Shown: piece after piece, positions 21,171 to 64,000 of the stretch
How positions within the stretch are numbered: the first letter of the stretch is position 1
Layout: each line of letters starts with the position of its first letter
Source of the DNA: Larus michahellis
Taxonomy: Eukaryota > Chordata > Aves > Charadriiformes > Laridae
Direction: 5' to 3'
Assembly (NCBI RefSeq): GCF_964199755.1
Contig: NC_133911.1
Location: forward strand, 3,871,001 to 3,935,000
DNA length: 64,000 bases
Notes under the pieces: generated by a model
Told to the model about the DNA's origin: nothing
Databases searched by the model: none
Seen by the model: only the letters and a program-made list of their open reading frames with translations
Position numbers and translations under genes: made by a program

Positions 21171-24100
21171 TTAGCTTTTATTTTCTTTTTCTGTCTTCTG
21201 AACTTGTGAAAGCCCCCTTGCTCTGTAACGGTTCCGGGGGTTTTTCCATGATGGTCGAAGAGCTGCATGTGTGGTGCAGTTGGGACAGTTTGTTGACTTT
21301 CTGGGCAAGAAGGCAACTTTTTTTCTAGAGCAACCAAGCTTCTTGGAAGAGTTCTCCAGCCTTTTGGCAGGGCTCTGACCGAAGGGGCTGGTCATGCTGG
21401 TTTGTGGCTTCAGAAATCGGCCTGTGCACGGTCCAGTTCTGAACTTCAAGGGTTGTTTCTGGCCCAGGTCTGCAGCATCCTCATGATAAAGAAGCACAAA
21501 ACGGCCGAGCGTCTCTAAAGGCAAAACTCTCTGGCCTTTGAGGCGCTTTTTGAAAACCTCAAGAACCAAATCTGGAAAAGAAGATGTGGTTGTGAGATGG
21601 TCTAAACGCTCTGACACTAAAATACACCCGAGCTGTCATGTGGGAGGGGAAGTGGTTTCCAACCTGTGATCTGTGGCCTCTGTGGACTACTGCTATTAAG
21701 ACAATTTTAAAAAAAAAAAAAAAAAGAAAAAAAAGAAAAAAAGAACACTACACTTTTCTTGCATCCACTTCAGCCAGCTTCAGCTCCACTGGAAGCATTT
21801 TAGGAGATTGGTAGGAAAAATATTGTAAAATGGCTTACAGTGCCATATAGGATATGAATAAACCCCAAAAGAAACATACATGTGCCCAGGGAGGTCACTG
21901 TATGAAAGTAAGCATGGTAGGGTATTGCTAATCCCCTTCATGCAGACATAGACTCTCCCTTTACTACTTCTTGCAGGGATATCACAGAAAATCAGAGATT
22001 TTGGTCCTCCAGGCAGGAGCAGTTCTAGTTAATGTATATCAGACTACATCAGGATTTTTTCAGTCTTTGTATAGTTCACATAAGAGCTGCCAGCTCTGTT
22101 TGTGAAGTATAGCTGTGTCAGGCGCGCTGTAAAAACCGTCCCAAATTCCCGCACATTCAGAACAACAGGCATGAGAAAAATGTGCAGGTGCAGTTTATAG
22201 GGTCATGTATTAAGATTTAGCCTTTTGTAGGCAAATATGTAAGAAAATATTCTTAAAAATAATTATAACAAAAAAATTTAACCGCTTATTTCTTTCTAAT
22301 GGGGGCATGGCTAAAAAGACTGTAGCTTTTCCAGGTCTGCATGGATTAGAATTTTCAGTGCCTTCTAAATCGCTTACAAACTCAGCAGCGAGTTATCTTT
22401 ATTTGAAGACTGCTTTTGAGCTACAACTGATATAAACAGGAGTCTTTCCTCTGACATGCAATGGAGTGATAGGATTTTCTGCTGCTGGCCACCCCGTGAC
22501 TTGTTCACTCACCAAGACTCTCGTAGACTACAGTTGGGATGATGTCTTTCAAGACTTGGCAGTTGGTATGCAGTGCTGGGTTTGCGTTCATCTCCAGAAG
22601 CCACACCTAGGAGAGATGAATGCCAATGAGGAAGCTAGGCTGGATCTCCTCAGAGTCAGAGCGATGCCCTTTTACTGACTTAGTGAGCACCTTGAGAGGT
22701 GGGAGTGCTAATAAATCCCAACAAAATCCCATAACGCAAAGCACAGGCAGGGCAGAATTTTCATAAGGACTGGGTGAATTAAACAAAATCCCTTTTTGCA
22801 TACATTTACGCCCTTGAGAACAACACTACACATTACTTTGTGTCTCCAGCTGATTCTCTTTAAATTAACTCTTGCTCTATAGGTGTGTAAAGGCACTGTT
22901 GTTCTTAACATATGAGTTTCCATAACAATTTCTAGTTGAGTTTTTTGGATATCATGAAATAAAGTTACAAGGAATCTAGGAATCATTTTGATTTGAGATG
23001 GATGTGGGATCAACACTAAGCAAACGTGGCACTGAGTTTTCAATGAACCCTTGATTTCCTGGATAAGCTTTAGTTTCAGGTAGAAGCCATGTAAGATAAA
23101 GATTTTCCATATCTATACTAGTCTCATCTCTGTTTCCCTTCGAAATGCCGAGCTCTGAAGCAACAAGTGCAGAACGTGATGGTCCAGTTGCAATCTGTGT
23201 GAAACCAAACAACTGACTTGCACGTAATGCTGTTTACGATTTCTTTTCCCTGTAGTGAGAGAAACTCATCTGTTCATTTCCTGCCTCCACCATATGGTGC
23301 TGCATCGTGTATATTGAGAGCAGCCCTGAAGAAAAGGACCTGGGGGTGCTGGTAGACAAGGGGCTCCACATGAGCCGTCAGTGTGCACTTGCAGCCCAGA
23401 AAGCCAACCGTATCCTGGGCTGCATCAGGAGAAGCGTGGCCAGCAGGTCGAGGGAGGTGATTCTCCCCCTCTACTCCACTCTCGTGAGACCCCACCTGGA
23501 GTGCTGCATCCAGTTCTGGAGCCCCTACTACAAGAGAGATACGGAGGTGCTGGAACATGTCCAGAGAAGGGCCACGAGGACGATCAGAGGGCTGGAGCAC
23601 CTCTCCTGTGAGGACAGACTGAGAGAGTTGGGGTTGTTCAGTCTGGAGAAAAGAAGGATCCGAGGAGACCTTTTAGTGGCCTACCAGTATCTTAAGGGGG
23701 CCTACAAGAAAGCTGGGGAGGGACTTGTTAGGATGTCAGGTAATGGTAGGACTAGAGGGAATGGATTAAAACTAGAGATGGGTCAATTCAGATTGAACTT
23801 TAGGAAGTTGTTCTTCACCATGAGGGTGGTGAGACACTGGAACAGGTTGCCCAGGGAGGTGGTGGAAGCCCCATCCCTGGAAGTTTTTAAGGCCAGGCTG
23901 GACGGGGCTCTGAGCAACCTGATCTAGTGGGAGGTGTCCCTACCCATGGCAGGGGAGTTGGAACCAGATGATCTTTAAGGTCCCTTCCAACCCTGACAAT
24001 TCTATGATTCTGTATAACACACGTAGGAACTATTCAGTGTTCTATAAGGAAGGATATTTAATCTTACAACAGCGCCCGGGAGAATCTTACTCCCTTTTAA

Positions 24101-30100: not shown

Positions 30101-33100
30101 TCAAAGCGGTGTTTTCTCTGTGTGTGTGTGCGTGTGTATGACACATCTGGACCAGTGGCTGGCAGACAGGGAGAGGTGCTTTCAAGTCATAGTCATGATA
30201 TTTGAACTAAATCCAGTTCCAGTGTCTGGTCCTCTCCTAGAGGAGACCGTGTCTGGGAGAGGTGTATGGATGTTTTCCATAGGAAACCAAGGTGAGGGCT
30301 TCTCTCTTCCACTGTCTCATTAATCCCTATGTCAGCTGGAGTTTATCAATAATGGGGTATTTATATTGTTCAGTCATAGGCAAGTCCCCTTTCCCTGCGA
30401 AACAGCTGGGCTGGGCTGCACGTCCATCTTTGGGACGGTCCCTGCGAGGTTAGTGATGCTGCCTCTTGTCTTTTGGAAATACAGTAGGAGAATGGCTGAT
30501 TCCAGGTGGGATGAAAGGGTAGGAAGGGAACGAGAGCGGAATCAACTGTAATTTGAAGGAGTCTGGTAATAACCAGCCACTCCTGTAAATTTTGTTTCCC
30601 TCCTCCCAGCAGGAACCCACGTAATTTATGTTCTGCTAATAAACACCTGTCCTTTGTTTAATATCACTTGTGCCATGGGATCCTACCCGAGCACCTGAAT
30701 TCCCGTGTGGCTAGCTCTCTAGCTGAGCAAACAAACTATTCCAGGAAAACAAGTGGCAGAGTGATAATAGCATATATTGTGATAATAGCATATATTGCAG
30801 GAAGCAGGTGTAATCTGCTGTCCTGAACTGCACTTCCAGAGGAACCGTAAAACTCCAACTGAAGTGGGCTTGTCTGATACCTCTCGAATCTGTATTTCCC
30901 TCGTTCTCAGAGCACAGTGTGACACTGGGAGGAGAGAAGGGCTTTAAAAGCAAACTGCTTTCTTCCTTCTGATTCTTTTAATTCTCTTTCATCACGGCCA
31001 GTTCTAACTACAGAAGGGCCCCATTTGAAGCAAAACCGCAGGGAGATCTGAGCAAGGCAGGCTTCTGTTTTGTATGATAAAAGATGTACGGGGGTACAAG
31101 CCTGAGCAGTCTTGTTCTGTTATAGCTCTCATTTGAGAAGCGAGGCAAGCAAAGATGGAGATTTAGGAATGATGGCTCTTGAAGAACACATCTGCATCTT
31201 ACATCGTTATGATTATTGTGTTTATGCGCAAAATCCTTCGCCAAGATTAAGGCTCCTTTGTGCTAGGTATCTGCAATCAAAGGCTTCTTGCCCTAAGAAG
31301 CTTACAATCTGTAGATACATGAGAGAACAACAGCAGGAAAAAGAGATCCAGGGAAAAAAAATTGTCAGGTTAAGCAGAGAACTGGTCCGTGGCAGAGAAG
31401 GGAACCTGATCCGGTACTGCTTCTGTTCACTCCTGTTGCCGTGCCTGACCATGAGCCCCCCTCCCTTTCCTGGGGGCATGGATTTTGCTTGCACGAGGCA
31501 TTTATTTTTAGCCTTTCTAAAGTCTTTTTTGCTTCCCACCTCTGTTAACCACAGCCTCCCTTTCTTCTGAACTAAGTGCGCTTCGTTTACCTGGTTGGTC
31601 AGATGGACAGTCAGATCATCAGAAGCGGCATCATAATTGACACAGGTCAGCCGGACATAACCCTGGGCAAAAAATAACACGTAGGGCGCTGTGCAGGCAA
31701 TGAGGAGGTAAGACCGGACGTCAAACTTCTTCCCTTCCAGGAGCAGAGGCTGCTGAATATACCTGTCAGAGCAGTATTTCAACACGCGTCACCAAGAAGT
31801 AGCCATAAGACGTGGCAATTCCAAGCTCACACAAAAGCCAGTTCATGTCTCACCACAGAGCTCATCTGTTTGTCCCATTCTCAGCACTGGTTTTAAGGTG
31901 AATGGCAGCAGAGGGCGCTCATAGGAGAGGTTAGAAATGCCAAGAGTATCTCCTTTCAAGAGGGAAAGACGCTATGAGTCTTGGGAGCGGGAGGTAATTA
32001 AAGATTTACTAATATTTACTGGAGAATATGCAAAGTTTATGTCTGAACACAAAGAGCCCTTCATACAGCACCATTGCTTTTATTGCCAGCGTGATGTAAT
32101 CTGGGAACTGTTTCCCTTTATCATCAAAGGTTGCTGGATGTCTACATAAATAACGAGGATATGCTGTTAAAACAATCAACGCTAACAACGGTTTTCAAAG
32201 GAATATGGAGCCTCGTTCTGCAGAGCATAAGCCATTCTACTAGAAATCAAGGTGACATCTAAGATAGGGTCCAACCACTTCTTCCCCTGGCACTGCTGCT
32301 TGTCCATGTCAAAGAATTGGTCTAACGAAGTCCCTTGGTCTAATTTTGTCAGGCAGTTGTTGTTTTGCTCTGTATACTGGCTGCTGCGTAAACACAGTCC
32401 AGCCTATTCCTGAAAGACTTTAAGATCATCATTCGAGTTTGCCATTTTACAAATCTCTCTTATCCTTCTCAATGAGGCCCACCATCCCGTTGTGATGAAA
32501 AGAAATGTTTGGATGAATGTAAGCAGGGAATATTGCTTGTTTTGGCTAGGGCAGCTCTTGGGAAGGTCACTGTGTTCTCTTGCAAAGTAAAGACGCCAAA
32601 TGACAGCAAAGTGTCAGGGAAGTGGCACTGGGTCAGCGTGAGGCATTGGTATCACCGCTTTGCCAGGACATAGAATGATAGAATCACAGAATGGTTTGGG
32701 TTGGAAGGGACCTTAAAGATCATCTAATTCCAACCCCCCTGCCCTGGGCAGGGACACCTCCCACCAGCCCAGGTTGCTCCAAGCCCCGTCCAACCTGGCC
32801 TTGAACCCCTCCAGGGATGGGGCAGCCACAGCTTCTCTGGGCAACCTGGGCCAGGGGCTCACCACCCTCACAGCAAAGAATTTCTTCCTCATATCCAATC
32901 TAAATCTGCCCTCCTTCAGTTTGAAACCGTTACCCCTCGTCCTATCATTACACTCCGTGATTAAGAGTCCCGCCGCCCTTTCTGTAGGCCCCCTTTAGGG
33001 ACTGGAAGGGGCTGGAAGGTCTCCCCGGAGCCTTCTCTTCTCCAGGCTGAGCCCCCCCAGCTCTCTCAGCCTGTCCTCACAGCAGAGAGGCTCCAGCCCT

Positions 33101-36100
33101 CTGAGCATCCTCATGGCCTCCTCTGGACCTGCTCCAACAGGTCCACGCAGTGATCACTACACAGCAAAATGTGCTTTTGCTATGCCAATACTGCAGCGTT
33201 GTCACGAGCGTATGGCATTGTCATTGCTGGCACGTCATGACAACGCCAGGCAGTGCCATGCATGTACGGGCACCTCAGAGTGCCCCATGTGCCTGGCTGT
33301 GCACACCAGAGGCAGCATCAAAGGCATCTGGGAGCTGCAGCTCCTAGGATAAATACAGAAAACATCTGTTTTGCATGTCTCTCTCTTTATTCACTCATCT
33401 CAAAGCACTGAAGTGATTTAATTGTAATCCATTCCTCAGTTGAGGGAGGGCCACTGGGGCGAAGGGAAGTCAAGTGAGTTTGTGTAAGAGTATGCAAGTA
33501 ACGTCCAGTGGCTGAAACCGTTCTCGTGGCTTTTACTGCCTTATTTTTCCCTTCCTCGTTCTGCTACTTGACAAAAAGTTCTAGCAGTGGCTGAGAGGGT
33601 GTGTATTCTACAAAGAACCATCGTGGTTCTTTTATTCGTGAAAGGAATAAAAAACTAAAACAACCCTAACCCAAAATTCTAGGGACTTTTAGCCACTGCC
33701 TGTTGACTGAGGTATAGACTTTTGCAGCATTGAGGAAGAGTTAAGAAGATATTTGGGAGGCTTTACTAGATTGCGTGGAACAGATATTGTAGCTGTACAA
33801 TTTGTAAAATGCCAGCTTTGTATAAGAAGCTGGGATAATATCTAATTTGAATTGCTTTGCACAAGGCTTTTTGTCTAGCATTCATGTACAGAACTGCAGG
33901 ACCTGGCCTTTTGAAGTCATTCTTAAATTTCCAGACAAAGGGAAACGCAAATCTTTCTGATGACAAAGATCCCCTTTGAAAGGACCGCAGCGTGGATGCA
34001 AGACAGACTAACCAGAGAAATAGCCTCCCTCCCCCAAAATGAAATCTCCTAGGTTGATGAGATGTGGTGCAACCACGTTAAGTACCTATGGGAACAGTTC
34101 AGCTCGCTGAGGCCACTGTTCTTCATCAAGCACATTACTCACACGTGAGTTCCCAGGCTTCAGTCTCTACCTTTGCACTATCCTTGCCTTGGGAGCCTTG
34201 TATGGCACCCTCTTATGGAGGAGGTGGTCTTCAGCGCTGTGGAGCTTGGCTTGAAGGGTGTTGACGGAAGCTGGGTTTTTAAGCAGGAAAATTCCTCGCC
34301 CTTGGTTAGAGCAGCTCGGTTTGCAGATCCAAATCTGTTCTTCTGCAGAGAGAATGAGTCCATTACAGTAATTTGTGTGCTAGGAAATGCCGATGCGCCC
34401 GTTAGTGGGCTCTGAAAACTGCTCATTGAGCGACTGTGTATGTACATAAATACACGTGCATACAGATATGAATTGTTTTTACTATGTATACTTCTATGAA
34501 CGTTTTAGAGGATCATGTAGCTATTTAAATTGGTTGCCACCATGATTAAGACTATCTACCTTTGCAAAGCTCAAAAAAGGCATTTCTCTCATCTTCTAAG
34601 TCCAGGCGAAAAGATTCTGGGAAGAATTCTTCCATCTTCAGGAACCTATGGGAGAACCAAATACAAGTTGAAAACCCCATCCAACACGTTCATTCCTCTG
34701 TTACTCTCAGAAAGGATGGGTGCGAGTAAAAACTTAAGGAATGCCTTTTTTTTTTTTCCTGCTTCTAGACAGTTGTGTGTTTGTTGTATGTTTTTGCTGA
34801 GCTACCTCATTCCATAAGCTTCCAAGAATATATGTGAGCCTTAAGACATTCTTCATATGCTCAGTTTTTTGAAAACCAGTTGAGATGGCTGCAGGTGACC
34901 ACGGTACAGGATCGCCATTTGGTTTTTTGATCAGTTAAAAATACAGGAGCAGAAATGGCAATAAACTTCTCTTACATTTACAGTGTCTGTGGCACAAGAA
35001 ACTGTGGCCTTTCCAGTAGGACAATGTACCCAAAATAGGGGAATTGCTATGTCTATGGTCTGCGGGGGACCTGGCACTCCTACGACTCCAGACAGAAAAG
35101 GAAGAAATTCTGTCTTTGATGTATGTACTTCTGGAAAAAAAAAGTGATTTTTCTGGAAGATAAGAAAGAAATAAAACCCCAATACTTCATATTCTGTAAT
35201 GTTACGCGTCCAGAAGAAACTGGTCCTTTGTTTATGTGCTCTCACTTTCTGTTGGCACGTTTCTGGTCAAGGCTCAAAGGTGAGAGTTCTTACTTGGAAT
35301 TAGAGCTCCTACTGATCTTTGTCATCGCTCGCTCTTGCTCTCTCAGGCAGCATAAAAGCCCTATCTTACTGGTCAGCACTCCATTGTTGGGAATCTGATA
35401 GAGAAGCTGTTCACCTGGATGAGAAAGGAAAAAAAAAAAAAAAAGCAGCTTGCCCTCGTTGTCCCATGCAGCAGAATCTGCAGGATGATGCTGACTTTGT
35501 CACCGCTGACTGTCACCAATTTGCTTTAAGGCTGTAGTGACAACCCACAGAGCGGTGAAATCACGTGCTGTAAATGTATTTCTGTCTGACCTTGTAGCGG
35601 AACAGACCGACCTGATGGGGCTTCGTAAATTAGCGCGTCCCTTGCCTGCTCCAAAGGTGCCACTGCCCTCACACCATTCCAGCTGCAGGATCGCATTGAA
35701 ACACATCTGCACGGCTGTAAATGGTGCAGCCTGGCAGAAACAGCCACCGCATTGCCATCAGAGCCGGCAGGAGGGGAAAGGGGGCTGGTAGGGAAGAGAT
35801 AACACGTTCCTCTGCCACAGGAGAGCCAGCGGGTCTGTGCCCCGATGCTCAGGCTTGCCAGGGCACAGGTTTTGACCACCTCCCAGAAGTAAAAGAATGG
35901 CGCCAGGGGCTGTGCTTTGGGAGTTGTACCGCTCCAAGGGTGCCAGCCAGAGGTATTGCTCTGGGAGTCCTTGATTTTATGCTTTTCTGGTGGGAAAGCT
36001 GGGCCCTGAGAAGTCAGGATGTACTGATGAGATGAAGGGTAGAGCACAATTCCAGAAGTTGCTGGCTAATACAGTGGAGTAGTTTGGCTTTTTAGTGACT

Positions 36101-47990: not shown

Positions 47991-50900
47991 AGTCTTGATG
48001 CTGCTCATCCCGGTGTTGGGGTGGGCAGCGCTATTCCAGCCAAAACCGGCGCTCGGGGCTGGGATCGGCGCGGCCGGGGCTGGGTACCAGCTGCAGCCAT
48101 GAGGTTTCACCCCGTGCTGGCGGTGGGAGTGCAGCCCTGTCTACGCAATCGCCTTCATTCAAGGATATTTTAGGGGTGACTCGTGCCGGTGGTGCGTGTG
48201 CTCCCAGTGGCCTTTTCCGTAGCAAACGGGAGGGTGAGCACAGCACGTCTCTCAGGGAGCAATGTCTTAATCACATTTGGAGGCTGTTCCCCCACACACA
48301 CACACAAACGGGGTCATTCCCAAACTGCCTCTGGAGCTGGGACGAGGTCAATTCCAATGCTTTTTCCAGGGTTTGCAATTCCAGGGTATTTTTCCTAGCT
48401 TGGCATTGGCATTTTCCAACAGTAGTAGTGTTTTTTACGGAGAGCGCTTCTAGAGGGAGGGAGGGAGAAACCGGCCGTGAGGAGGCAGATCGGAAGGACC
48501 GTGCACCGTCACGTACACGTGTTTTTTGCTGCTGTAGGGGCCAGGAAGGATCATCTCCCCTTGGCTCTGCAAGAAAGCCACAGAGAGCGACGGGGAGACT
48601 CACCTGTGCGATGGAAAAAAAACCCCCCGACATTTACATGTTGCGGACTTTAACGGTAATGGATAATTATAAATTGCTTTGATAGGTGTATTAAACAATG
48701 CGTGCTTGGGCTCCCCGGTGGTGAGTTGTGGTTCCCACACAGAGTACGGGTGGTGTGGGGGGTTTATGTCGGTACCAGAGGGAAAGCGGTAGGAACACGG
48801 GGGCAGGCACCACCTTTCCCAAGGCGTTTATCAGCCCAGCCCTGGCTCACTGCACAGCAGGCATGCGGCCCGCAGACACGTGGAAATTAATGATTAAGCC
48901 CCAAATTTGGAAGCGAAGCCGTGGCGTTAGGAGAAGACAAGCCCAACGCGCCCCTCCAGCAGCAGGTGAATCCTCCGCGCGGCGATTTCGTCAAGCCAGT
49001 TCCTCCTGAAACAGGCCCATTTGTCGGTGTCGCTGAGCACCTACAGTCCTGCTTGAGATCAGCAGAAAGGCGGGAGCACGTCACTCCGTGAGAGGAGAGG
49101 CTCCGTCAATCGTGGAAAAAGGAATTTGGCCTGAAGTCCCGTGAAGGCTGTGGAAAACTTCCAAGGGTTTCATCTGGCTTTGTATCAGTATTTTGAGGGA
49201 ACTGGGAGTGTTTCCTAGAAAATGCGCACCCTTTCTCTCCCTTTTCACGTGGCTTTGGTGCCCAAACCACGACATTTGGGTTTGCTGCTTTGTTTTTGTG
49301 CTGAACCCCTTTCTGGTGTTGCGTTCTCCTGCCTTGTTTGGATTTGGAGCTGCAGCTGAAGGAGCGGCGAGTCCCCGGAGTGACGTTACATCCCAGCTTC
49401 AGCAACATCCAACCCACCGTCCGAGGCGTGGCGGCGGGAAAAAGAAAGGTGAGCGAGGAGTAAAGCAAACAGCCGTGGCACGTGGTCCTTCCCGCGGCTC
49501 GGGTTTCCCGCTGCCCAGTCCCAGACCCAGCAGCTCTTCGTGCGGGAGGCAGCCGCCCCGCCGGAGGGTCTCCCGCTGGATCCACGGGTGCTCCTCTCGC
49601 CGTGTGTATGTCCTCCTGGCCCACCGTCTTTAATATATAAAATAATATATATATTACAGTGTATTAACATATACAAATATATATATTTAATATATTAAAA
49701 AGAAGCCGTGTGAGGCACAAGGCCCAAGTTCTGATTTTACAGGAGAACCACTCGCCTTGGCTCCCGTTCCGTACCTGCAGAGCCGACTTCCAGAACTCGC
49801 AGGAAATTCGAGAGGGACGTGAGCAGGAGCAGCAGTTGTGAGTGAAAAACGGTTGTGTTTTGGTTGGTTGGGTTTTTTTTTAAAGACAAACTACTGCCAA
49901 GGAGTTGCTCTTGCCTGTTGCTGCAGCAAAGGGTGACCGTATCATTCAAAGCCCCCCCATTTGCCTTTTCTTGCTCTGGTCACTCCATGTGTGCGGTCAG
50001 ACTCCGGGTGAGGCTGGAATTCCATCTCATTGGGGCATGAAGCCATGGTAAAGCAGCCGCCCGGGCTGATTCACAAGCGGAGCGGTGCAGGTTCTCACAT
50101 CATTTGTGGCATTTTCAAAGGTCGTGGGGCGCTGAGCACCCAAAGCCCGTTGAATTCCAGTTTGATTTGGGCACTTTGCTGCCTTGGCTTTTTCCAAACC
50201 GCCAGCTGTAAATTCCCAGGGCCTGTCTGCACCCTCTGCATCCCCGTGGAGCTGGAATAACCGCAGTGACCTTATTGACCTGCCCAAACACAGCCGCGCC
50301 GTCGGCAGCAGAGCCAGCCGCGAGCCGGTCTGTAGGGGCTGAGGCTGTCACAGACCCAAAGCCATCCCCGTCCATGCCCAGCTCTGTACCTCTGCCTCCC
50401 TAGATGGGGTTCAGTCTTCTTTTATTTACCGTGGTATTTTCTTCGGGCGTTTTATTTCATATACAACTTCGGGAGAGTCTCAGCAGCTTTCTAAGTACAA
50501 ACCATTGCTTGGCAGGACTTTGCCTGAGACTTAAACAAATTCCCCGTGGCCGTACCCGTCAGGCTCACTCGGCATGTGTGTCCTCTTTCAGAAATGCCTT
50601 TGGTTCATCTCAGAACCCGCAGCTGCTCAAGCCTGGACCCGTCTCTCGGATGCCTGCGGGACTCTGAAGTGCTGCCAGCAAACCGAGAAGTCGGGACGCT
50701 CCGCCCATGGCCCCGCGGTCTCCCTCCTTGGGAAGGTGAGAGGGATGCCCAGATGCCCTCAGAAATGAATTTCTGATGAAATTCCAGTAGTCTGAGGGCA
50801 AACTGTGGCTGTCGTTTCAGTATTTTGGCAGTCGGATTGCTATGGGATACGCATCGCTCCGGTTACTTCTCTCCATTCAAACCCTGACGGGGCCCCATCC

Positions 50901-51189
50901 GTTGCTGCGAGTTCCTGGCCGAGCGCTGCCGTTCAAACACGCGGTCGCTTCACAGTATCGGATGGGGCCAAATTTTCATGCGTGTTGTCAGTCATGTTCT
51001 CTATAAACCACAAAGACCATCCCACGGAGCCATGCTGCTGGCTATTTTTATTTTATTTTATCACTACAGAGAGCAACCCGGCAAGCTTAACCATTTATTT
51101 GGCATGGCCAAGTGTTTACATGCCCCCCAGCTATAGCTTCAGATGAGGAAAGTTTGCCTCATAGCGCTCCAGAACTTGGCTTCTCAGTG
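47991..51189. other. no gene supported; CpG-rich patches
   Basis: CpG-rich stretches at about 48040-48250 and 49410-49620, a short CA tract near 48294, and an AT-rich simple repeat at 49629-49699. Open frames here are by-products of high GC. Possible first exons of TTLL10 transcripts cannot be excluded but none has a matching chain. Confidence 0.4.
49629..49699. repeat. AT-rich simple repeat
   Basis: Imperfect TATATA/ATTAA microsatellite of about 70 bases, immediately next to a CpG-rich stretch. Confidence 0.8.
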
Positions 51190-51460
51190 GTGCCTGGTGA
51201 CAGGACAAGGGGCAACGGGCACAAGCTGGAACACGGGAAGTTCCATCCCAACATGAGGAGGAACTTCTTTGCTGTGAGGGTGGCAGAGCCCTGGCACAGG
51301 CTGCCCAGAGAGGTGGGGGAGTCTCCGTCTCTGGAGACATTCCAACCCCGCCTGGACGCGTTCCTGTGCCACCTGCTGTGGGTGACCCTGCTCTGGCAGG
51401 GGGTGGGACGGGGTGATCTCCAGAGGGCCCTTCCCACCCCCATCGTTCCGTGACTCTGTG
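51190..51460 (+). mobile_element. CR1 LINE 3' fragment
   Basis: Plus-orientation copy running from GGTGACAGGACAAGGGGCAA through MRRNFFAVRVAEPWHRLPRE to a tail decayed to CCGTGACTCTGTGAG. It is close to the copies at 12767 and 41885. Confidence 0.9.
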
Positions 51461-51465
51461 AGGGG

Positions 51466-51540
51466 AGCCGTAGGACAAGGGGGAATGGTTTTAAACTGAG
51501 AGAGGGAAGATTTAGATGAGGTATCAGGAAGAGAGTTAAA
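51466..51540 (+). mobile_element. small second CR1 fragment
   Basis: AGGACAAGGGGGAATGGTTTT and the following bases match the part of CR1 ORF2 just upstream of the region present in most 3' fragments. It adjoins the previous CR1 in the same orientation but lacks a tail. Confidence 0.6.
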
Positions 51541-52870
51541 TGCAGGCTGTGTCTAATTCAATTTGGTCACTGTACAAAGCTCAGACTTTTCCCGGTCTTG
51601 CTGTTTTTTAAAGTATATTTATAGGCAGTTCCTTTATTCTAAAATGGCCCTGATTTTGGGAGCCGTTCTGCGGGAGATAAGGGCCGAAGACAAGTGAGCG
51701 AGCTGAAAGAGCCGCACGTTATTAACTCCTCCCGGTTTTTCAGGTTTCCCTTCATTCATGGGCGCACAAGGCTTTTTCTCTCGTGTGGCCTCCATTTATC
51801 GACAGGGCAGGCTCAGAAACAGCCATCAAACGGCAGGCAGTGAATAACGAGTTAAGCTCGCGCACAGCAGTGGGTTTGTTTCAAGCGGTGTTTGCCGTGC
51901 AAATAACACGAGCGATCCAAGCGCGGTCGCGTCTCCTGGGTGTTTGCTGAGCCTCTCCCTGCCCGTGGCTCCCGCTTGAGGGAATGGTTTAATACAGTCT
52001 ATTAAGCGCTCGGACACCAAAATTAAAGTGGAATCTTCATCAAATATCAGATCCACTTGGTTCTTCCGACACATGCACCACCACCACCCCTCTTTAGACC
52101 TGTGTTTATGAGGGTTTTAAAGTGCCGTGGGTCTCAGGAGGGGCCAGGGAAGTTGCACAAGATGCTCCAACCTGAACGTGGCGGTTTGGATCCCGGGTGC
52201 TTTTAAAGCAAATTGACACTATCTGGAAAAAAAATAAATAAATAATGCTGCTGCCACCTTGAAGAAGGTACATAGTTTGATAGAATTGTATATTACTCAT
52301 TAAACAGCTTCTTTAATACTTAAATCCACTTATTATCAAATGATGTGTTCATATGTCTGTAGTTTAAACGGCTTGAACTTTGTTCTTGAACGGGTTTGGG
52401 CTGTGCCAGGAGGTGCCTGTTAAATTTACTGCCCTGGGAGATGCCCCCACCTCGCCTGGCCTAAAATAAACCCACAAAGGAATATGAAACGAGCTTCTCC
52501 CAGGCCGTTTGTAAAGGGGGGGAGGTGTTATGGTTTTCTTCCCTACCGTCTAAGTATCTAAATCGCCTTCCACACGACACCTGGGGCTGATATTCTGCAG
52601 CTGTAAAGAACCCTGTTGAGAACCCTCCTTCCTATTGATGGTGCCTCCGTCCTGCGTACAGGTGATGTGACGTGGTTTTAACGCGCTGGAGTTTATTGCT
52701 GCATGACGACTAATAAAGTATTTAGAAGGGTTCAAGCTGGTTTTCCCCCCTAAATCTTTTGATTTCTGCAAAATACTAGGAAAGCTAAATGTCTTGTCTT
52801 TGTCTCTGCTCAGCTCCCTGTTAGAAATCCCTGGTTTATTTTTCGCTTGTTGTTAAAATTGGTAATTGTA

Positions 52871-52952
52871 GGAGAGAGGAGAGGAGAGGAGAGGAGAGGA
52901 GAGGAGAGGAGAGGAGAGGAGAGGAGAGGAGAGGAGAGGAGAGGAGAGGAGG
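52871..52952. repeat. (GAGGA)n pentanucleotide microsatellite
   Basis: About 15 nearly perfect copies of a 5-base purine unit. The plus strand is all purine, so the tract could form triplex structure. It is open in a repetitive Glu/Arg frame that is not a gene. Confidence 0.95.
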
Positions 52953-54304
52953 TGCTCACCTTTTCTTTTTTTAAAGCCATATGTTGCCATGCCAGTGTGT
53001 TAAACGTTAATGTTAGTAAGTTAAAGACAAATAAGGCTGAATACTTGGAGTCTACAGCAAAGTCTCTTGGTTATTTTCTTCTGCAGCTGCCCGGATGAGT
53101 TATTTTCTCTGCGTGTGCCTGAGTTTTCCCAATTTTAACCTGTGGGTGATACACAGCGACGCGACTGCAATGCCAACGGTGGTTGGGAAGTGCCGGGGCG
53201 GGGGGAGAAAGGGACGCTGTGAGATGAGGCATTAACAGCCCGGTGGCATTGCTACGTAGCATTCCGATAGCAAACAGAGCCAATTCTGACACCCATCCTA
53301 GTCGGAAGCATCAATACTAATTACGGAGTTGTGGGAGGCAAGGAAACAGGAGATATTTGAGGGCTGTTTGGTAAAACGCGATCCCCGCTGACGCTGTGCT
53401 TGATCGTGCAAAGGCGCGCTGGACCGCTGCCTCGTGGCGTGGAACGTACTCCCATATTTTACCTACTGGAATGTAAAGCGCATCGCGACAGAGTCCCCGG
53501 ACCTTATTTTGTACGTCACAGCACGAGCCGTAGGCTGGGAAAAGGATATTTGACTTGTGCTCACCTTAGAAGGTGGAAATAAGGGCCGCAGGGTTTTGGA
53601 GCAACAAATAAGGCTGAAAAAAAATATCCTTTTCACAACTGTAAAGCCAATGTTTGGCGCTGCTTTTACAGATTTTGAGTACCAAAGTCTAAGATTAACA
53701 AAAGGGAAGCAGACCGAAATGAAAGTCTGCCCAATTTTTTTTGGCCCCTCATGTAATAATTTGCTTACAAAGGTTTGTTTAAAAAAAAAAATAAAAAAAT
53801 TAAATACTCTACTAGGTACCAAGACTGAAAGCAGGGATTAAGAAGTTGTGGCGATACCTGGAAACCAGAGCCGGTATCGGTACTCCATGTGGAGTACCAG
53901 CTGAAGGTACTGCAAGTAGTCGGAAGGTTCCCACTTGCCTTGCTCTTGCGGTAAGTCCTCAATCAACGACACGAGCTACAATTACACCGGGCTGCAATGA
54001 GTTGCTTCAGTTCTCCCCCGGCTGAGCCCGGGCTGTTCCGGTTGCGGTGCCTCTTCCTGCTCCTGCTCCTCAGTTCGGAAAACCCGCCCGGAGTGTTTGC
54101 TGGTCGGTCAAAGGACGGGAAACGCTGGTTTTGCTGAAATAGATGTTGCTTCTTTCCTTCCTGCTGCTCTCCTCGGAGCGGGATGTGGTTTAGGATTTGC
54201 GAAGACGGAATGTGCCTTGCTACTGCCACGATCATAAGAGGGTTTTCAAGTCTAAAGTCTCCTTGGCTTGTTCCAGACTACAGATCAGCAGGACAAGTAA
54301 CATT

Positions 54305-54333
54305 AAATATATATATATACACACATATATATG
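54305..54333. repeat. (AT)n/(AC)n microsatellite
   Basis: Alternating AT with a short ACACAC interruption, about 29 bases. Confidence 0.85.
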
Positions 54334-54579
54334 TTGAGGCGTTACAAGGGAGTTTAATGCTTGTATTCTGCGAGAGACACCAGCTCCTGGCTTGTTTAAG
54401 GACCATTTTTTCTGGATTAAGGGTTTTTTTTTTTGGTGGGAGCTTATTGAGAAATTCCTTCCCCACCCACCCCACCCGATGGCAGGTCCTTCGCTTAGGA
54501 ATCAAGGATATTCAATGTTAAGGATAACGAAATGTTACTGGGTTGGTTTCGGTCTCACGTGGCTGGCTAGAGGTTTATG

Positions 54580-54895
54580 AGCGGGGCAGGGACGAGGCGG
54601 CGTTCCATCGATGGTCCATGTCCGGCCCCCAGTTCAGCCTCGCAGCGGTCGCGACCCCTTGGAAGAGTTGGTTGTAAATTGTGCCGGCCCAGCCCAGGCC
54701 GTGGGGAGCGACCGCGGGAGCAGCAGAGCTCCGGAATGCCCCAGCACCGCGCCGTGCCCCTGCCCCATCCCACCCATCCCACCCCGACGGGCAGGGAACG
54801 CGCCGGGGATTGGGCTCCGGCTCCCCCCAGAGCCGCGCGGGGCAGCACGTACTGCTCCGGGGCTGGAGCTGCTCGAGCGTCGGGGAAGGCTCGGT
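54580..54895. promoter_or_regulatory. CpG island
   Basis: About 315 bases with very high GC and roughly 25 CpG dinucleotides by eye, against an otherwise CpG-poor background. It lies about 2.1 kb downstream of miR-429 and about 13.4 kb upstream of the candidate TTLL10 start exon on the minus strand, so it is a reasonable promoter candidate for TTLL10. Strand and activity are inferred. Confidence 0.5.
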
Positions 54896-55884
54896 TTAAA
54901 CGCTCAGAAATCTGTATTGCTTCAAAATAAATTCAACTCAGAGCTGGGCTGAGATTCAACATCTTTTATTAAATATACGACTGGGTTTTTTATTAGAATC
55001 CTAAAATGAATAACGTGAGCTATAAGGCAGCGAAATAGCACATTAAACGGCGTGTAAGATATAAAAATGTATCTGTACAATAGCAGCGAGTGAAACTCTT
55101 CTTCCTGCTTCTACAAAGAAAACAATCTCTACGTAGGTGCCTGTCCACACGCGTGGGTGCCAGTGATAAAAACGGTGTCAGCAGAATATTCAGCAGAATA
55201 ATGACATCAAGCTCCTGGAGGGAGCGTGAGCTGTAAGCTACTGACCGCGGCATTGGGGACTAGACTTCATCTCTCTGCCTTCCCCGGGAACGCTTTGTGC
55301 ATATACCTACCCTTTAAAATCGATTGCATCAGGCATCGCACGGAATTATTTTTTTTTTATTACCAATTTCCCCAAAAAACATTTCAGTAAAAGGCACGCA
55401 GTTCTTGTTTTCGCTTCTTTTAAAGATAACTCGTAAAGTGTTGCTGAAAGGTCAAATTTGTTTCATTTCCGGGAACACCTTAACTCCAAAAAAGCCTCGA
55501 ACATCATGTCGAGCATCTCACGAAGACAGAAATAGAAGGTGAAGGTTCCAGCAAGAGACTGTGGCTTCTGCGAAATCCCAAGGGTGAGTGTTGGACAGAG
55601 GGAGGCGTAGAGAGGAACGGGACAGAAGGAACCCAGCGGCTGGAGTTCAGGGGCAGCACAGGGAGAAGCGTAAAATGTAGTGGCCTCGTCGCTCGGTGAG
55701 ACACTGCAATATACCAGACCGAGTAGCGCCTTTCCGTAACTTTTCGATGGAAAGGACTGCCGCTTGGACCCTGCAAAGCGAGACTTGCCAGCATGAGTCA
55801 TTTTAAGCGGGACATAGATACCATCTTCACCTTCCGAGCGAGTTTTGGGCAAGGCGATTTCCTAACTGGGAAATTCCTGACACT

Positions 55885-56155
55885 TGAGTGAGACTGGCCG
55901 TGGAGAACTCCGCTACCTCCGTTCCCCCGCCTCGGGGCGCAGGGTGCTCAGCGGAGGTCGGGAACACGCGGCGTCACGCTGCTCCCTCTCCTTGCGCGAG
56001 GAGGGGGGGCTCCGTTCAACCCAGCAACTGGCCAAGGCCGGTGCTGCGCCCCGGCACGGCGAGGGTAAGGGCTGGCCGCCACGTGCGGGGAATCCGGGCA
56101 CTTCCCGGGGAGGCCGCCCTTCTCCCGGTGTGGTTCGGCTAACCGCGTCTCAAAT
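55885..56155. promoter_or_regulatory. second CpG island
   Basis: About 270 bases rich in CpG (roughly 20 by eye), 0.8 kb downstream of miR-429 on the transcript strand. It contains a plus-strand donor-like GCGAGG|GTAAGG near 56064. No coding content is recognised. Confidence 0.45.
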
Positions 56156-56984
56156 AGAAGATCTGCTGAACTGAGGGCTTTGCAAACCCTCCCTTTTTAT
56201 AAGATGCCTTTAAAAGTACTTTTCGGTCAGTGTGAAAATAAAGCAGACCTCATTCGGAGTTTCGATATAGTAACAGGGCGCACTGATCTGTGGCGGAATT
56301 TTGCTCGTTTAACAAATAATTTCCAAACAGAAGCAGCTACTTAAACTGACGGCAGCCTCAGGCGGCTAAATGGCCCGAGTTTACCCAGGAAAATTCTCTT
56401 CTTCTTAAACAACAGCAAAAAAGCCTCAGAGTTTTCTGTATTGAGTATAGGAGTAACTCTGTATGATGAAGTTTGGAAGATTTAGAAACTTTCAGCTCCC
56501 TATGCCACGGCGCTGGGCGTTTTCAGCCGTGCGTACTCTACAGACTTACTACCGTAGGGAGCGACGAGGGCCTCTGCTTGGCCCATTTAATTGGATGACG
56601 TAATTCTCAAAGCTACTGGGTTGTTGCGTCTGCACCCATCAGACTCCAGGGAAGTCTGACGCTAGGTCCCAAAGTCACTGCCGTACAGACGGCTAACGAG
56701 CGCAGGAGCCTCGTTTCTTACGGAAGCAAGTCCAGAAAACAGATCTTGACCTACCTACGTATCACGGACATGCGAGCTCTTGCCTTTTCTCATCTCTCTC
56801 TTTACGCTCCTGGAGGCATTACAGGGCCTGTTTGGGTGTTGACGAGGCGCAGAACCAGCGCGCAAGCTTTCGGCGTAAGCCCAAGCTCCGGTGAGAAGGC
56901 GCCAGACACCAGACTCCATCGATTCTTCTGAAAAAGGCAAGCTTTTTTTCTCCGTATTTCTCTCAAGACGAAGAGGTTTGCCAA

Positions 56985-57060
56985 TGCGATTGACGGCATT
57001 ACCAGACAGTATTAGACAAAAATAGCTAGATCTAACTTTGCCTGGTAAGACAGCAATCAG
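56985..57060 (-). ncRNA. MIR429: miR-429 precursor
   Basis: The minus-strand hairpin has its mature 3p arm at 57014-56993 (starts TAATACTGTC, seed AATACTG) and its 5p arm at 57051-57031, separated by a 16-base loop; GATTG/CAATC continues the stem outside. The 3p sequence agrees with the bird form as I know it and differs from human at two bases near its 3' end. It is the last member of the miR-200b/200a/429 cluster in transcript order and targets ZEB1/ZEB2 with the miR-200b seed. Precursor ends are approximate. Confidence 0.96.
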
Positions 57061-57295
57061 CAGGCGCTCAGGCTAAAGGAAACCACCACCATTAAAGGCC
57101 TTTCTCCAGCTCCAGGACTAAAAAGATAGGGGAAGGCCGAGGGCCTCTCCCTTAGACAAAGCAATAACCGGTAAATATTTAACTTGGAATACTTGCTGAT
57201 TATGGGGCAGTACAATTATGAAAACACAACTGTTTCCAGTTCACTGGTATGCGAGTTGAAAAAAAAAAAAAATAAATGAATGGTAAAGAACTTAC

Positions 57296-57425
57296 CAGCA
57301 GCTGTGTCCGCCGCGTCCCTCGCCGAGGAATGGCTCCCCGTGGCCGCGGGGGCGCAGCCGTCCTCGGCTGATTCTAGAGGCTCTAGAGGCTCTGCCCTCG
57401 GCAACAGCCGACCGCCCCTCAGCCA
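57296..57425 (-). other. CpG-rich segment with a perfect splice donor; candidate 5' exon
   Basis: On the minus strand the segment ends in GCTGCTG|GTAAGT, a full-consensus donor with GT at 57295-57294. It is CpG-rich (about 14 CpG in 130 bases) and lies 0.24 kb upstream of the miR-429 precursor. It has no ATG on this strand, so it would be a non-coding first exon of TTLL10 or of the primary miR-200 transcript. The right border is a guess. A 9-base direct repeat TCTAGAGGC occurs inside. Confidence 0.35.
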
Positions 57426-59828
57426 GACAACTTTTCCAGAATTAAGTCTGACGCGGAGCAGGCCTCAGACAGCTCTTAACCCGTCCTAAGAATCAGTGGA
57501 AGTGAAATCCTGTGAAACCGATTGAAGCGAGAGGAAAGTCAGTAGGAGAAGGGGAGGGAGAGAAAGATGCGGAGGCAGAAGGGCATTTTCCTGAGTTGCC
57601 CCTGGCTCTCGTGACCGTCTCTCTCTGAGACAAGACTGAAGGGACATTTTCCTGAGCGTACGTCATCACGGAGGCGGGAAGGGGGACTTCCCCCGGTCTC
57701 CATTTCGGCTTTTTAAGGCGACATTCCTGTGCCTGCCATGGATGCTCAATTAGTTATCTTCTTTTTTTTTTTTTTATTTTTATTTATTTACTCAGCTCCA
57801 TCCAAGGTTAGGACCCATACTTTAAGAAGAGAAGATGGATGGGTGGTGGGTGCGCGCTCCAATTCCTCTTACTTAAATGCTTGTTAAAAGCCAATTTGCA
57901 GAGTCACTCAAATTTCACACCATTTCCTCCGTCCCTTGTGAACCAGTTACTTATTAACGCAGAAGCTAATCAGCAAAGACCGCTTCTCTGCTTCTTCCCT
58001 CTCTCTCTCTCTCTCGTTTTCCTGAGAATTACAACCTGCAAGGGTAAACACAAAGCTGAGCTCGTCCGGTTGGCGCTAAAGCAGGCCCAGCCAGCGCCTT
58101 TCAAGCTGCTCACACATTGCGATGGGAATAAGTTTAAGTTCTATCCGAATTGGTTCATTTTTTCCTACTGTTCTTGCGTGTGACCTACTGGTTTTGGCAA
58201 GGAATCACACGCCCAGCTTACTACAAAGTATTGAAAAAAATATTTCGAGATTTCCAGTGACCGAGGCGGAGAACACAGAATGTGCTTGTGTACCCCAGTG
58301 CTGCTCTGCCAGGTCCGTTTTGGAGCGAGGGAGGGGATTAACATGAGGTTGAGGGTGAGGAAAACCCTTTGGTGCTGGGACGCCAAGACAAATCAGTCCT
58401 TGGGATCCATTTCAAGCTCTGGGGCAAGGCGCGTGTGGTCAGGGTGCATGTGGAACACGGCCTTGCATTTCTCACGGAAAGGAGCTGAAAACCGACGGGT
58501 ACAAGACTGAAGAACCAGTACAAGGTCTGGGCACTGTTCCACCTCGTTACATCTCCAAGAACTAAAAATTCTGTGGTCTTTCGGAAGTGCAGGCAGCTCC
58601 TTGTGTAAAGATGAATCTCAGCTCGTATAGTGGACTGTTATTATGAATTCTTGTCCTCTACAGCTGGACCAGGCTGTCTGCAAAATACTGATTTAGGTTA
58701 ATCCAAGGGGTAGGAAAGGCCTGTGGGGTAAGCACAGACTGGCCCTGAATACGTACGTGCGGCTCAGGCAGGAGGCATTAAACGCCACTAGAGGAGGGCA
58801 AGCCTTGACCCAATTTAGTCCCCAAATTTGCCCTGCAAATACCCGCTTCGTTTCCGCTGTTTGAGCGACCCCAGAATCTGCTCGCAGAATCAGATCTTTA
58901 ACAGCAAGCAATATTACCACTAGCAGTGCGGAAACTTGTGCTTTTTCAGTAAAGCGGATGGAGCTGGACCATCTGGCTCCAATACGACGTGGCGGGTCAC
59001 GAAGATAATACTCTTACAGGAAGAAGCGGTCTCCTCGAGCTCCTCTGTCACCCCAGGAGGCTTGTTTAAGTCTGAGCTCTGTGCATTTGAGAGAAGTACT
59101 TATTTCCTTAAGGAGTCCCAGCTTCTAATCCAAACCTCATCCATTCTCCCACTCCGTGCAGCGATGTACTCCTGCGGGAGCTGCTGCACAATTAGAATGA
59201 ATTCTTGTGAGGGGGTAGCTCTTCCTGTGCCTCTGCTGGGTGAGGTGGAGCAGGGGAAGCAATCAGTAGCTGTTCCTTGCCTGGGTTAATTCCTTTGTTT
59301 CTTAGTGGAATGATTCGAGTGATTAACCCACCTGTTCTAGAAGCTGAAAGCACTGCCTGTAACAGGGCAGGGTATAAGGTTGGGAGTTCATAGGCCGTTC
59401 AACCATGGAGGTATAATTGCACTGCAATTGGGAAGAAGGACCTTTACAGCCAGTATCCCGCCTTGGCCACCTTTCACAGCCAGGCACGGCAACCTACAAG
59501 CCAATCCTTCAGCCCCCCTGGGCAAGGGCTGGGCCACGCAAAGGTATCACAGCTCGGAGCGCTGTTTGGAGAGAAGGACGCGTTACTGTGCCTCTGCCAG
59601 GACACGCGTTTTGTGAGTCCCGTCTCGCCTCCTTCACAGCAACATGGAGGTTGGGTAGCACCTAACGGAGCAGCTTCTTTTGGGAAGTATTTATGATTAT
59701 AGCCTTTTACTAATACATTTATTAACACAATAGCCAACATCCTTACCCTCTTGTCCAAATGTTGCACTTTGGCCTAAATTGTGGCACAGTGTCTTTCTGT
59801 GAGAGCTCCTCCTGAGGCATGTTGTTGT
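57426..59828 (-). other. pri-miRNA spacer between miR-200a and miR-429
   Basis: No gene seen. Contains a T-rich/ATTT tract at 57759-57791 and a CT repeat at about 57998-58015. The spacer is about 2.8 kb, clearly longer than the roughly 1.1 kb in human as I recall it. Confidence 0.5.
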
Positions 59829-59918
59829 TTGGTTCACCCTTTAAACATCGTTACCAGACAGTGTTAGAGTAGATCCAAAAAATCCAGCACTGTCTAGTAA
59901 GATGCCCACAGAGGACCA
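59829..59918 (-). ncRNA. MIR200A: miR-200a precursor
   Basis: The mature 3p arm at 59866-59845 is identical to the known vertebrate sequence (starts TAACACTGTC, seed AACACTG). The 5p arm at 59904-59883 starts CATCTTACTAG and differs from human at two bases. The loop is 16 bases. The arms pair over nearly their full length, and the stem continues outside them. The single seed difference from miR-200b/429 gives it a distinct target set shared with miR-141. Confidence 0.97.
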
Positions 59919-62209
59919 CGGTCTGTCCAGCAGTTGGAGAAATGAAGCAACTATTAATGATTCCGCATTCTTCGGGATGTCAGCGTTCCATAAAAACTAA
60001 CAGGAATGGCTCGAGAAAGATTGCCCTACATCACTGGGGTGTAAATAATTTACCAAATATGTGACGGGCAGAAGGAAGACATTTGATGTTAAAGGACCGT
60101 TTGAAAAGCACGGTGGATTTCAGGAGACAAAGATAGTGTAAAAAGTTGATTTAATAAAGATCTAAAATAGAAACACAAGGTTAAGTTCTGTTTCAACATG
60201 ATGTAAAGGCAGTAAGATTTCTTGTGGTTTGGTTCTTGGCTTCCTCACTCTCCTCCCTTTCGATTCACAAAAATACCAACTGATTCAAGTCATTAAAAAG
60301 ACATACCGAGAGCTGCGATATCAAGAAAACAGTGCTAAGAAGGGCACAAAAAAGTGACAACGATGGCCTTGCCTTCAACACAGTCGGTTGCTTTTACAAC
60401 AAATACTTTATTGTATCGGCTTTATTTTAAGGGGTGCAGGCAAATTTGAGTCTTAAATAAAAGTGACGGTGACAACAGACTTGGGGATGCAGTCGTTAAA
60501 CAGTAATGTAATTAAGCATAGTGAATGCTAACAATAAAGATGATGAGGTACCTGTCTCTGCTTGGTTTTCCTTTTTTCCAGCAGAAGGGGAAGTTTGCTG
60601 TAGCGCATCACGCAACGGAGAAGGTAAAAATCCAGCGCACGCTTTTCCCCGTGCAAGAGCCCTGCGCCAGTCTGAGTGGGGCTGTGACTCCAGGGACTCC
60701 AGATTTCGGAGTCTGCCCCTGACCCACCGCACGGCCCAGGCTGATTTGTTTCGTCTTCCTGTCTTCACCCCTTTTTGTTAGTCCTGTCTCGGGGTAGTCA
60801 CGACCTGTCACGATGCGATAGCTTAAGAGAGCCCTGAGCTGAGCTGCGCTGCGTGGGTGATGTTATACTGCGTATAACGTTTCTCGTAGCCAGAAGATAA
60901 ATCTTTGTGGACCCAGCACAGTATTTCACGTGGTAGATATACAGCCTTTACATCAAACTAAACTGTAAAGGAATACATTTCATCCAAGCTACGCTGCAGT
61001 GAACCATTCGGCTGATGCTTCAGAACAGGGTGCAAGGAAAGAACCAGCCTCCTGGGTGCAGGTAAGGGACCCCCCCCAGGACGCTGCCATTGCTGCATTT
61101 GAGTGCTTAACACCTGCCGGGTACACTGAAACGCCTGCGCGTACAGCCACGTGTCAGATAAAAACATCTCACAGCAGTAATACCCTTTCTCAGTCATAGC
61201 CTAAATCATTATTCACAGTAGCTTCCGTATCTGAAAACTGGGAAATGCAGCTTCCTGTAATTCTCAGGAAAGAACAAAAAGCCTCCGTGAACCTTTTAAG
61301 ACAAAATTCTCACTTCCACTAAGTCCGTTTTGACTGAGCTAGTTCTTCCAAGGTGACTTTAACTAGTATAATTGATTCTACGAGGAAAGAAACCTCGTAG
61401 AATAAGAAGCAAGCCCATCATATTTTAAAACGTATTCTAGTATTAGTCTGCTGAAGTAATGGGAACAATCAAGGGGAATGGGAGTGAAGTCTCATTCTCC
61501 CTCTCTCCCCCCAGCTCCCCCCAGAGAAGTGACAAACGGGTGTTAAAGTATATCTGTATAAAAATAAAATTTAAAATTTACACATTGCAAAAAATGTGAA
61601 AGTTTTAAAATCAATGGCTTTGCTATTAGAACATCCTACTGGAGCAGTCTAGAGAAATTGCTGTGAAAAGGAAAAGAGTAAGTTACGATAGCAAAGCTGA
61701 AAAAACAAACTCCACTTTTCATTTTGGCAGTCTAGTTCTTAAATTATCGTATTTTTAGATGAAAAGAACATTTTGATTTTGAGAGAAAATTATGAACAAG
61801 AAAACCCAAATGTTACATTTCAATAAAGTGTTTACTTTTCATTCTCTGGAAAGCCAATGTTTAAAAGTCAATAAAAAGAAGATGTTTGGAGAAGAGTTCC
61901 TACGTTCATCTTACTGCTACAAAACAACATTTTCATTTGAACGTATTCTGTTGTCGCCGTGTCAAACACGTGCTCTGATCCCCATTCTGCATGCTTTTCT
62001 ATTTACAGGCTCGCTCTAACGTTATTTTATCATTCTAGAATAAGGATAAGATTTTCTTACGTTTGCTTTTGACCTCTATTCTAGAACCCAAAGCATTTAA
62101 TTTTAAATTTACTTATGCTTGGGAAGATCAGACAGTCAAGCATGGATTTCTCTGCTGGCCACTAACCTCTGTCTCCAAATTCGCTGTTGAACTTTTCCAC
62201 GTTGTACAC
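59919..62209 (-). other. pri-miRNA spacer between miR-200b and miR-200a
   Basis: No gene seen. AT-rich, with a perfect 11-bp hairpin at 61375-61403 and a CACCTG E-box at 61111-61116. The spacer is about 2.3 kb against about 0.7 kb in human as I recall it. Confidence 0.5.
61375..61403. repeat. perfect 11-bp hairpin inside the miR-200 cluster
   Basis: ATTCTACGAGG at 61375-61385 pairs exactly with CCTCGTAGAAT at 61393-61403 around a 7-base loop. It is too short for a microRNA precursor. Confidence 0.7.
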
Positions 62210-62292
62210 GAAACACCATAATCATCATTACCAGGCAGTATTAGAAAAACTGAAAACATCCAATGCTGCCCAGTAAGATGGTAATGGCATCT
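62210..62292 (-). ncRNA. MIR200B: miR-200b precursor
   Basis: The mature 3p arm at 62243-62222 (starts TAATACTGCC, seed AATACTG) and the 5p arm at 62280-62259 (starts CATCTTACTG) both match the human arms exactly as I know them, with a 15-base loop. It is the first member of the cluster in transcript order. It represses ZEB1 and ZEB2 to maintain epithelial state, and in mammals those repressors in turn bind E-boxes upstream of it. Confidence 0.98.
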
Positions 62293-62391
62293 CAGGATCA
62301 TGGTCTACAAACAGCAGATCTACCACACGCTAGAAAGCCTGACTATTTGGAGTAGAAAGAAAAAGGCTGTGTGTTGGGGGGGAACAATAAC

Positions 62392-62397
62392 CACCTG
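62392..62397. promoter_or_regulatory. E-box CACCTG upstream of miR-200b
   Basis: CACCTG is the preferred ZEB/SNAI site and lies about 100 bases upstream of the miR-200b precursor. In mammals ZEB1/2 repress this cluster through such boxes. A single hexamer is weak evidence. Confidence 0.25.
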
Positions 62398-63247
62398 TAG
62401 CTGCCTCTTCTGTGTGACTTCAGCAATTATCATCGGGGAGAGGCGGAAGCAACAACGTTCTGAAAAATTATCCCAGTGATATTTGCACAGGGTCATATAG
62501 TCCTGACTCTTCCCACCATCCCCGCCTCCCCGCGCACACCTTCAGAACCGTCACTTACCGGGAAGTGGTCTTATTTATATTCACACCTAACGAAACACAC
62601 TAACGAACTGAAAAATTTGAGGCCTGGGGAATTACAGCCACCCTTATGCCCTATCTGCTACTGCAAATTAAAAAGGTGGGGAAATGCAAAATCCAGGAAG
62701 CACCACGGGTCTATAACTCTTACCTTTCTTCCAGTACCTCTAACAATTTAAGCTTTATCTATGTTTTTATTAGGCAATTCATATTTGCCGATTCCTTCAA
62801 TCATTTTTTAATCAGGTTTATATTTGGGGAGGCCAAAGATCTTGCAGAGCAGAGTTATTACAAAGAAACTGCGACTATTTAAATGCTAAGAATGTTTGGA
62901 GCCTCGTACTCTTCACATCATCTCTTAACGTTCACAAGATTTTTGCATGCGTGGTTTTTTTTACGATATTAACTCATATACATTAAAAATACTCCTAGTC
63001 CTCTAAACAACTCCGGAGCAACTAAACAAATTACTACAATTTGCTCACCACAAAGAAACTCAGCATTGACGGTTAATACCCTTGAAAAGAAAAGACTTGG
63101 AACCTGACAAAGATACTTTCCAGCGTGTTCTTGAAACCCGTTGGAAATCTCTGTTTGCCAGACCCTGCTGACAGATAAACCTTCCCCAGCCCAGTGGCTC
63201 CAGTACGGTGTTCGTCCTTCTCTCCCTCCTCCCATTTCCTCCTTTAC

Positions 63248-63391
63248 CTGCGCAGTTGCTGAGCGTCTAAACCAAACCCGCACCATTCTGAGCAGTGATT
63301 GATAGGGTACGACAATAAAACGACCTCCAACCCAACAAACATTGAGGGATGCAAAAAGTGCCGCTAAAAGAACGGGAAGAGAAATTTTCAT
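63248..63391 (-). CDS. unrecognised open exon with signal-peptide-like start
   Basis: Minus-strand ATG at 63391-63389 (A at -3) opens 48 codons that begin MKISLPVLLAALFASLNVC, a typical hydrophobic secretion signal, and run exactly in phase 0 to a strong donor CAG|GTAAAG at 63247. Without splicing the frame continues to 62969 (140 codons). I recognise no family, and no partner exon was identified. It could be a short peptide frame in the pri-miR-200 transcript or chance. Confidence 0.2.
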
Positions 63392-63970
63392 TCTGTTCCA
63401 GATAACTCCAGGTCAAAAAGGGCGAAATTGCTGAATAAAGGGAGCGAGTGTTTTAATTCACAAAAGCAACAAGACCAAACCCACCCTGACTGCTTGCACT
63501 GATGACTTCAAAACTGCCCTAAGGTGAGGGCCATTCCCGACTGCTCGGCTGCACGGGAGCCATTTGAACAGCAGGACCGCCTTCAATAAAAAGACGGTGA
63601 AAATGAAGTGAAAAACAGCTAGAACAAAATGGGGTGAAACGACAAATAAAACCCTTGTCGCAACTCGAATCTCATCCTGGTTTAAGATGCCTACATCTGT
63701 CGTGGCGTTACGTACAGTACCTGAGAGTGTAGCTGGGTCACTATAACCTCTTCGAGATTCACTTAAGAGAAATTCCAGGCAAATTCTGATGAAAATAAAT
63801 TATATTAAAAGAGCTGTTCCGTGAGGCAACCCCCCCCAGGGCTGCTTTTCAAGTCCTGTAATGCGTCCCATGACCTTACAGGGGCATGTGAATACGAATG
63901 CAGGTTTGAGTCCCCCACTCCATTTCAGGTTGACGTTCTGCAGATAGCTAAGGAGAGCACTACAGAAAAC

Positions 63971-63995
63971 TTGGGGGGGGGGGGCGGGGCGGGTG
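63971..63995 (+). repeat. G-run, possible G-quadruplex
   Basis: A long G-run followed by two more G-tracts separated by single C bases, ending in a GT repeat at the window edge. This layout can fold into a quadruplex. Confidence 0.6.
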
Positions 63996-64000
63996 TGTGT

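Follow-up and report, generated by a model that had tools for sequence, protein, structure and literature searches.

The miR-200b/200a/429 cluster of Larus michahellis and its TTLL10 neighborhood

Three hairpins of the mir-8/mir-141/mir-200 family

A total of three precursor hairpins of the mir-8/mir-141/mir-200 family (Rfam RF00241; gathering score, 47 bits) were observed directly on the minus strand of the window, by which we mean the whole 64-kb stretch of DNA analyzed. In transcribed order these are mir-200b (62218 to 62285; 71.8 bits), mir-200a (59841 to 59909; 69.9 bits), and mir-429 (56989 to 57057; 60.1 bits), with gaps of 2,308 bases between mir-200b and mir-200a and 2,783 bases between mir-200a and mir-429. 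All three scored above the RF00241 cut-off and thus belong to the miR-200 (mir-8) family, and they were the only gathering-level matches in the window to any of the 4227 Rfam families scanned. A preliminary description had placed a complete miR-200b/200a/429 cluster at 56985 to 62292 on this strand; the Rfam matches, the folds, the 3p arms, and the gene order bear this out, and each Rfam match sits within the stretch that had been proposed for its hairpin. A permissive Rfam search (E values up to 5) covered positions 48000 to 64000, the remainder of the window being searched at gathering level. It found no fourth RF00241 hairpin between 48000 and 64000; single weak matches to mir-459, permuted tmRNA, and osmY fell well short of the respective cut-offs. 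Scores against RF04301 (mir-200) were 29.2 bits for mir-200b and 22.7 bits for mir-200a against a cut-off of 86, and mir-429 was not listed. An ARAGORN search for tRNAs found none.

Folding of the minus strand gave -33.3 kcal/mol for the mir-200b stretch (62210 to 62292; z = -6.68), -38.6 kcal/mol for the mir-200a stretch (59829 to 59918; z = -6.57), and -26.3 kcal/mol for the mir-429 stretch (56985 to 57060; z = -4.77). Chance folding is ruled out by the shuffle test, in which none of the 200 shuffles of each hairpin reached its folding energy. In all three, the 5p side pairs with the 3p side, in agreement with the earlier claim that each hairpin has both of its arms. Plus-strand folds of the same stretches were weaker (-26.9, -27.6, and -18.0 kcal/mol for mir-200b, mir-200a, and mir-429, respectively) but still better than all 200 of their own shuffles (z = -5.84, -5.52, and -2.84), and the plus strand reached RF00241 scores of 39.3, 36.4, and 25.5 bits in the same order. 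Both the folding and the partial family match of the plus strand are as expected for near-perfect inverted repeats. The possibility of antisense microRNAs encoded by the plus strand was rejected, with all three family scores under the cut-off of 47.

The members were named from their 3p arm sequences. In mir-200b, the arm at 62259 to 62280 pairs with the 3p arm, and it agrees with the miR-200b-5p sequence. A search with a 16-base core sequence from the 3p arms, allowing up to three mismatches, gave 10 matches where 1.43 were expected, and the three exact ones are the arms described here. Two seed classes are present, AAUACUG in mir-200b and mir-429 and AACACUG in mir-200a. The 23-nt miR-200b-3p arm (62221 to 62243) and the miR-200a-3p arm (59845 to 59866) equal the gga-miR-200b and gga-miR-200a primers given in the available part of PMC3436634, and the miR-429-3p arm (56993 to 57014) equals both a primer from that source and a mimic in excerpts of PMC7793751. 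A chicken miR-200b-3p mimic (PMC7555432, in part) likewise agrees with the 3p arm here. Each of the three published chicken sequences has a single copy in the window, located inside its hairpin on the minus strand, and in all three hairpins the published mature sequence falls on the 3p side. The seed classes are consistent with excerpts of previous work in which group I of the miR-200 family has the seed AAUACUG (PMC9221129) and miR-141 and miR-200a differ from the rest in the seed heptamer (PMC2204047). In a single scan of viral contigs for stray vertebrate comparison loci, the miR-200b-3p arm was found in none.

The CNNC motif is a signal for primary-microRNA processing that involves SRSF3/SRp20 and lies 16 to 18 bases past the Drosha cut. 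In our three hairpins, CNNC begins 18 (mir-200b), 18 (mir-200a), and 17 (mir-429) bases past the 3p arm; the local chance of finding it in such a three-position slot is 0.162, or ~0.004 for all three. Pairing was also compared across a three-hairpin alignment, in which the miR-200b stem retained 89.7% standard pairs compared to 84.3% for shuffled alignments, of which 6 of 500 reached the observed value, and 31 to 52% when the partners were slid. Both sides had changed in 6 of 29 pairs, a count equalled by 40 of 500 shuffles and drawn from three sequences with the structure taken from one of them. Pair conservation of this kind is supportive, though not strong, evidence. An alternative proposal is that these hairpins are no longer processed, as relics or as inverted repeats that arose by chance. 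Given the strong folds, the Rfam scores, and CNNC in the expected slot in three of three hairpins, together with 3p arms equal to chicken microRNAs that others have measured (PMC3436634, in part), we regard that proposal as so improbable that it can practically be discounted.

TTLL10 and other features of the window

Partial coding exons of TTLL10 lie on the minus strand between 22514 and 34647, as indicated by tblastn blocks with bird TTL10 polyglycylase proteins and by Pfam TTL matches. Six minus-strand blocks (34561 to 34647, 34170 to 34352, ~31510 to 31785, 29642 to 29827, 28256 to 28381, and 22514 to 22645) were obtained by mapping five named TTL10 entries, not all of which cover all blocks; the block at 22.6 kb has the support of a single protein (P0007). 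The minus-strand open frame at 31402 to 31788 scored 53.2 bits to Pfam TTL (cut-off, 20.1) and has matches among TTL and TTLL proteins of solved structure. Among the exon open frames, Pfam TTL was above its cut-off at 34.2 and 31.4 kb and slightly under it at 28.2 kb. The exon at 31.4 to 31.8 kb had 20 homologous proteins, 15 of them unnamed. The five that carried a source name, from the birds Rhinoptilus, Circaetus, Anhinga, and Indicator and the fish Goodea, all bear the name TTL10 polyglycylase in one source or more, although a second source labels the Goodea protein "hypothetical protein." Among these named entries, Anhinga rufa had the highest identity (97%, across 45% of the query exon) and Rhinoptilus africanus the best E value (75% identity across 71%); one entry without a source name had 99% identity over 98% of the query.

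The six exon-like blocks follow one another in sequence between 34.6 and 22.5 kb, which places TTLL10 on the strand of the cluster and downstream of mir-429. The preliminary description had held that the order and strand of the cluster relative to TTLL10 are those of human. Its avian half is confirmed by the exon matches, and the arrangement in human is the same. TTLL10 may be either a downstream neighbor or the host gene of the cluster.

Several other features were observed in the window. Dispersed repeats up to 97% alike occur on both strands at ~5.3 to 5.6, 12.8 to 13.0, 13.4 to 13.6, 20.3 to 20.8, 23.5 to 24.0, 32.7 to 33.1, 41.9 to 42.1, 44.5, 47.5 to 48.0, and 51.2 to 51.5 kb, and no copy overlaps the microRNA cluster. 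Judging from the encoded peptide, they are presumably 3' ends of CR1 LINEs, which are usual in birds. From 52874 to 52951, the 5-base unit GAGAG is repeated perfectly in tandem (15.6 copies). Two plus-strand open frames, at 804 to 1190 and 4932 to 5405, resemble by eye a receptor domain rich in cysteines and a membrane-spanning segment, as would be expected if TNFRSF18/TNFRSF4 follow TTLL10 here as they do in human. As a TNF-receptor exon, the frame at 804 to 1190 was rejected: Pfam gave one sub-cut-off match to an unrelated family, and sequences of solved structures gave spaetzle alone (E = 0.3 to 0.36). Pfam gave no support for the frame at 4932 to 5405.

Transcription of the cluster

The three hairpins would most likely be carried by one minus-strand primary transcript that starts upstream of 62.3 kb. 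The window includes ~1.7 kb of sequence upstream of mir-200b, so the start may lie outside it; no CpG-rich stretch was found in these ~1.7 kb, and the promoter was not located within the window. ZEB-type (CACCTG) E-boxes on either strand showed no enrichment near the cluster, with 3 of the 49 listed across the window falling in 55 to 64 kb, where an even spread would give ~7. Excerpts from previous work describe E-boxes in the promoter of the human cluster (PMC3783398).

It is possible to imagine a different arrangement, in which mir-429 has its own promoter at the CpG-rich stretch 57301 to 57700, immediately upstream of this hairpin and separate from the mir-200b/mir-200a unit. This stretch lies in the 2,783-base gap between mir-200a and mir-429, reaches a GC content of 0.59 and a CpG observed/expected ratio of 0.76, and precedes, in the minus-strand direction, a donor-like GGTAAGT (57296 to 57290). 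With 14 CpG-rich stretches of this kind in the window, another of which (60551 to 60900) lies between mir-200b and mir-200a, the stretch argues only weakly for a separate start; as sequence features, it and the donor-like motif allow a separate mir-429 start but hardly support one. In leptin-treated chicken liver, moreover, all three microRNAs rose jointly, and the authors refer to one cluster in the part of the paper available (PMC3436634). We consider a promoter private to mir-429 very unlikely. Still less likely is the more specific scenario in which the cluster has split into two separate transcription units in this bird lineage, and a CpG-rich promoter and first exon at 57.3 to 57.7 kb serve mir-429 alone; if it were true, expression of miR-429 could be uncoupled from that of miR-200b/200a. 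The minus-strand interval 57290 to 57700 might also be viewed as a possible first exon of a transcript that either covers mir-429 or leads to TTLL10.

Comparison with known clusters and expected function

In this bird, the locus is almost certainly the complete ortholog of the miR-200b/200a/429 cluster of vertebrates. Its spacing of 2,308 and 2,783 bases is wider than the ~0.7 and 1.1 kb of the human cluster. A repeat insertion as the source of this spacing was examined by comparing 56901 to 62400 with the whole window (E values up to 0.001), a comparison that detects repeats common to the window but not ones absent elsewhere in it; the only match was that of the interval to itself, and the candidate was dropped. 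The miR-429-3p arm ends in UGCCGU, as in chicken, and differs from the human end, presumably AACCGU.

In chicken, gga-mir-200b/200a/429 on chromosome 21 has identical members and neighbor order (PMC6998359, in part), and the 3p arms given in excerpts of PMC3436634 and PMC7793751 are letter-for-letter equal to those found here. Across the features compared (members, neighbor order, and 3p arms), there was no difference between the two birds. The mammalian MIR200B/MIR200A/MIR429 clusters (human 1p36.33 and mouse chromosome 4) have the three members and the AAUACUG seed in common with ours (PMC9221129, in part). The mouse cluster is tied to Ttll10, as the cluster is here, and the accessible text calls Ttll10 its host gene (PMC5356520). 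In contrast, the miR-200c/141 cluster, the second one of this family in vertebrates, which shares the microRNA family RF00241, has two members and is located at human 12p13.31 (PMC9221129, in part), whereas the window holds only three family hairpins at gathering level, and the two-member cluster lies on another chromosome. Excerpts from other studies report that miR-200a, miR-200b, and miR-429 were all measured in chicken liver (PMC3436634), that miR-200b and miR-429 were higher in broiler muscle (PMC3107184), and that the clustering is conserved between mouse and zebrafish (PMC2204047). Because its members and their order are already in print for chicken, as far as the available part of PMC6998359 goes, the cluster is a known one.

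Transcription as a unit, processing, targets, and function in L. michahellis are most likely those established for the cluster elsewhere. Drosha and Dicer would cut each hairpin, and the 3p arms, once bound by Argonaute, would repress mRNAs that match their seeds; ZEB1/ZEB2 are the classic targets, and their repression would keep epithelial cells epithelial. The miR-200b/200a/429 cluster ranks among the main switches that control epithelial identity, and it has already been documented as conserved. In part of a previous account, ZEB1/ZEB2 form a double-negative loop with miR-200 (PMC9221129).

The reading of this locus as a miR-200b/200a/429 cluster is correct, and the cluster of L. michahellis is an ordinary and known one. 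Protein-based gene finding misses a mir-200 cluster, and the entry is useful for annotation. It provides one further bird genome with all three genes and the TTLL10 neighborhood and raises no new question.
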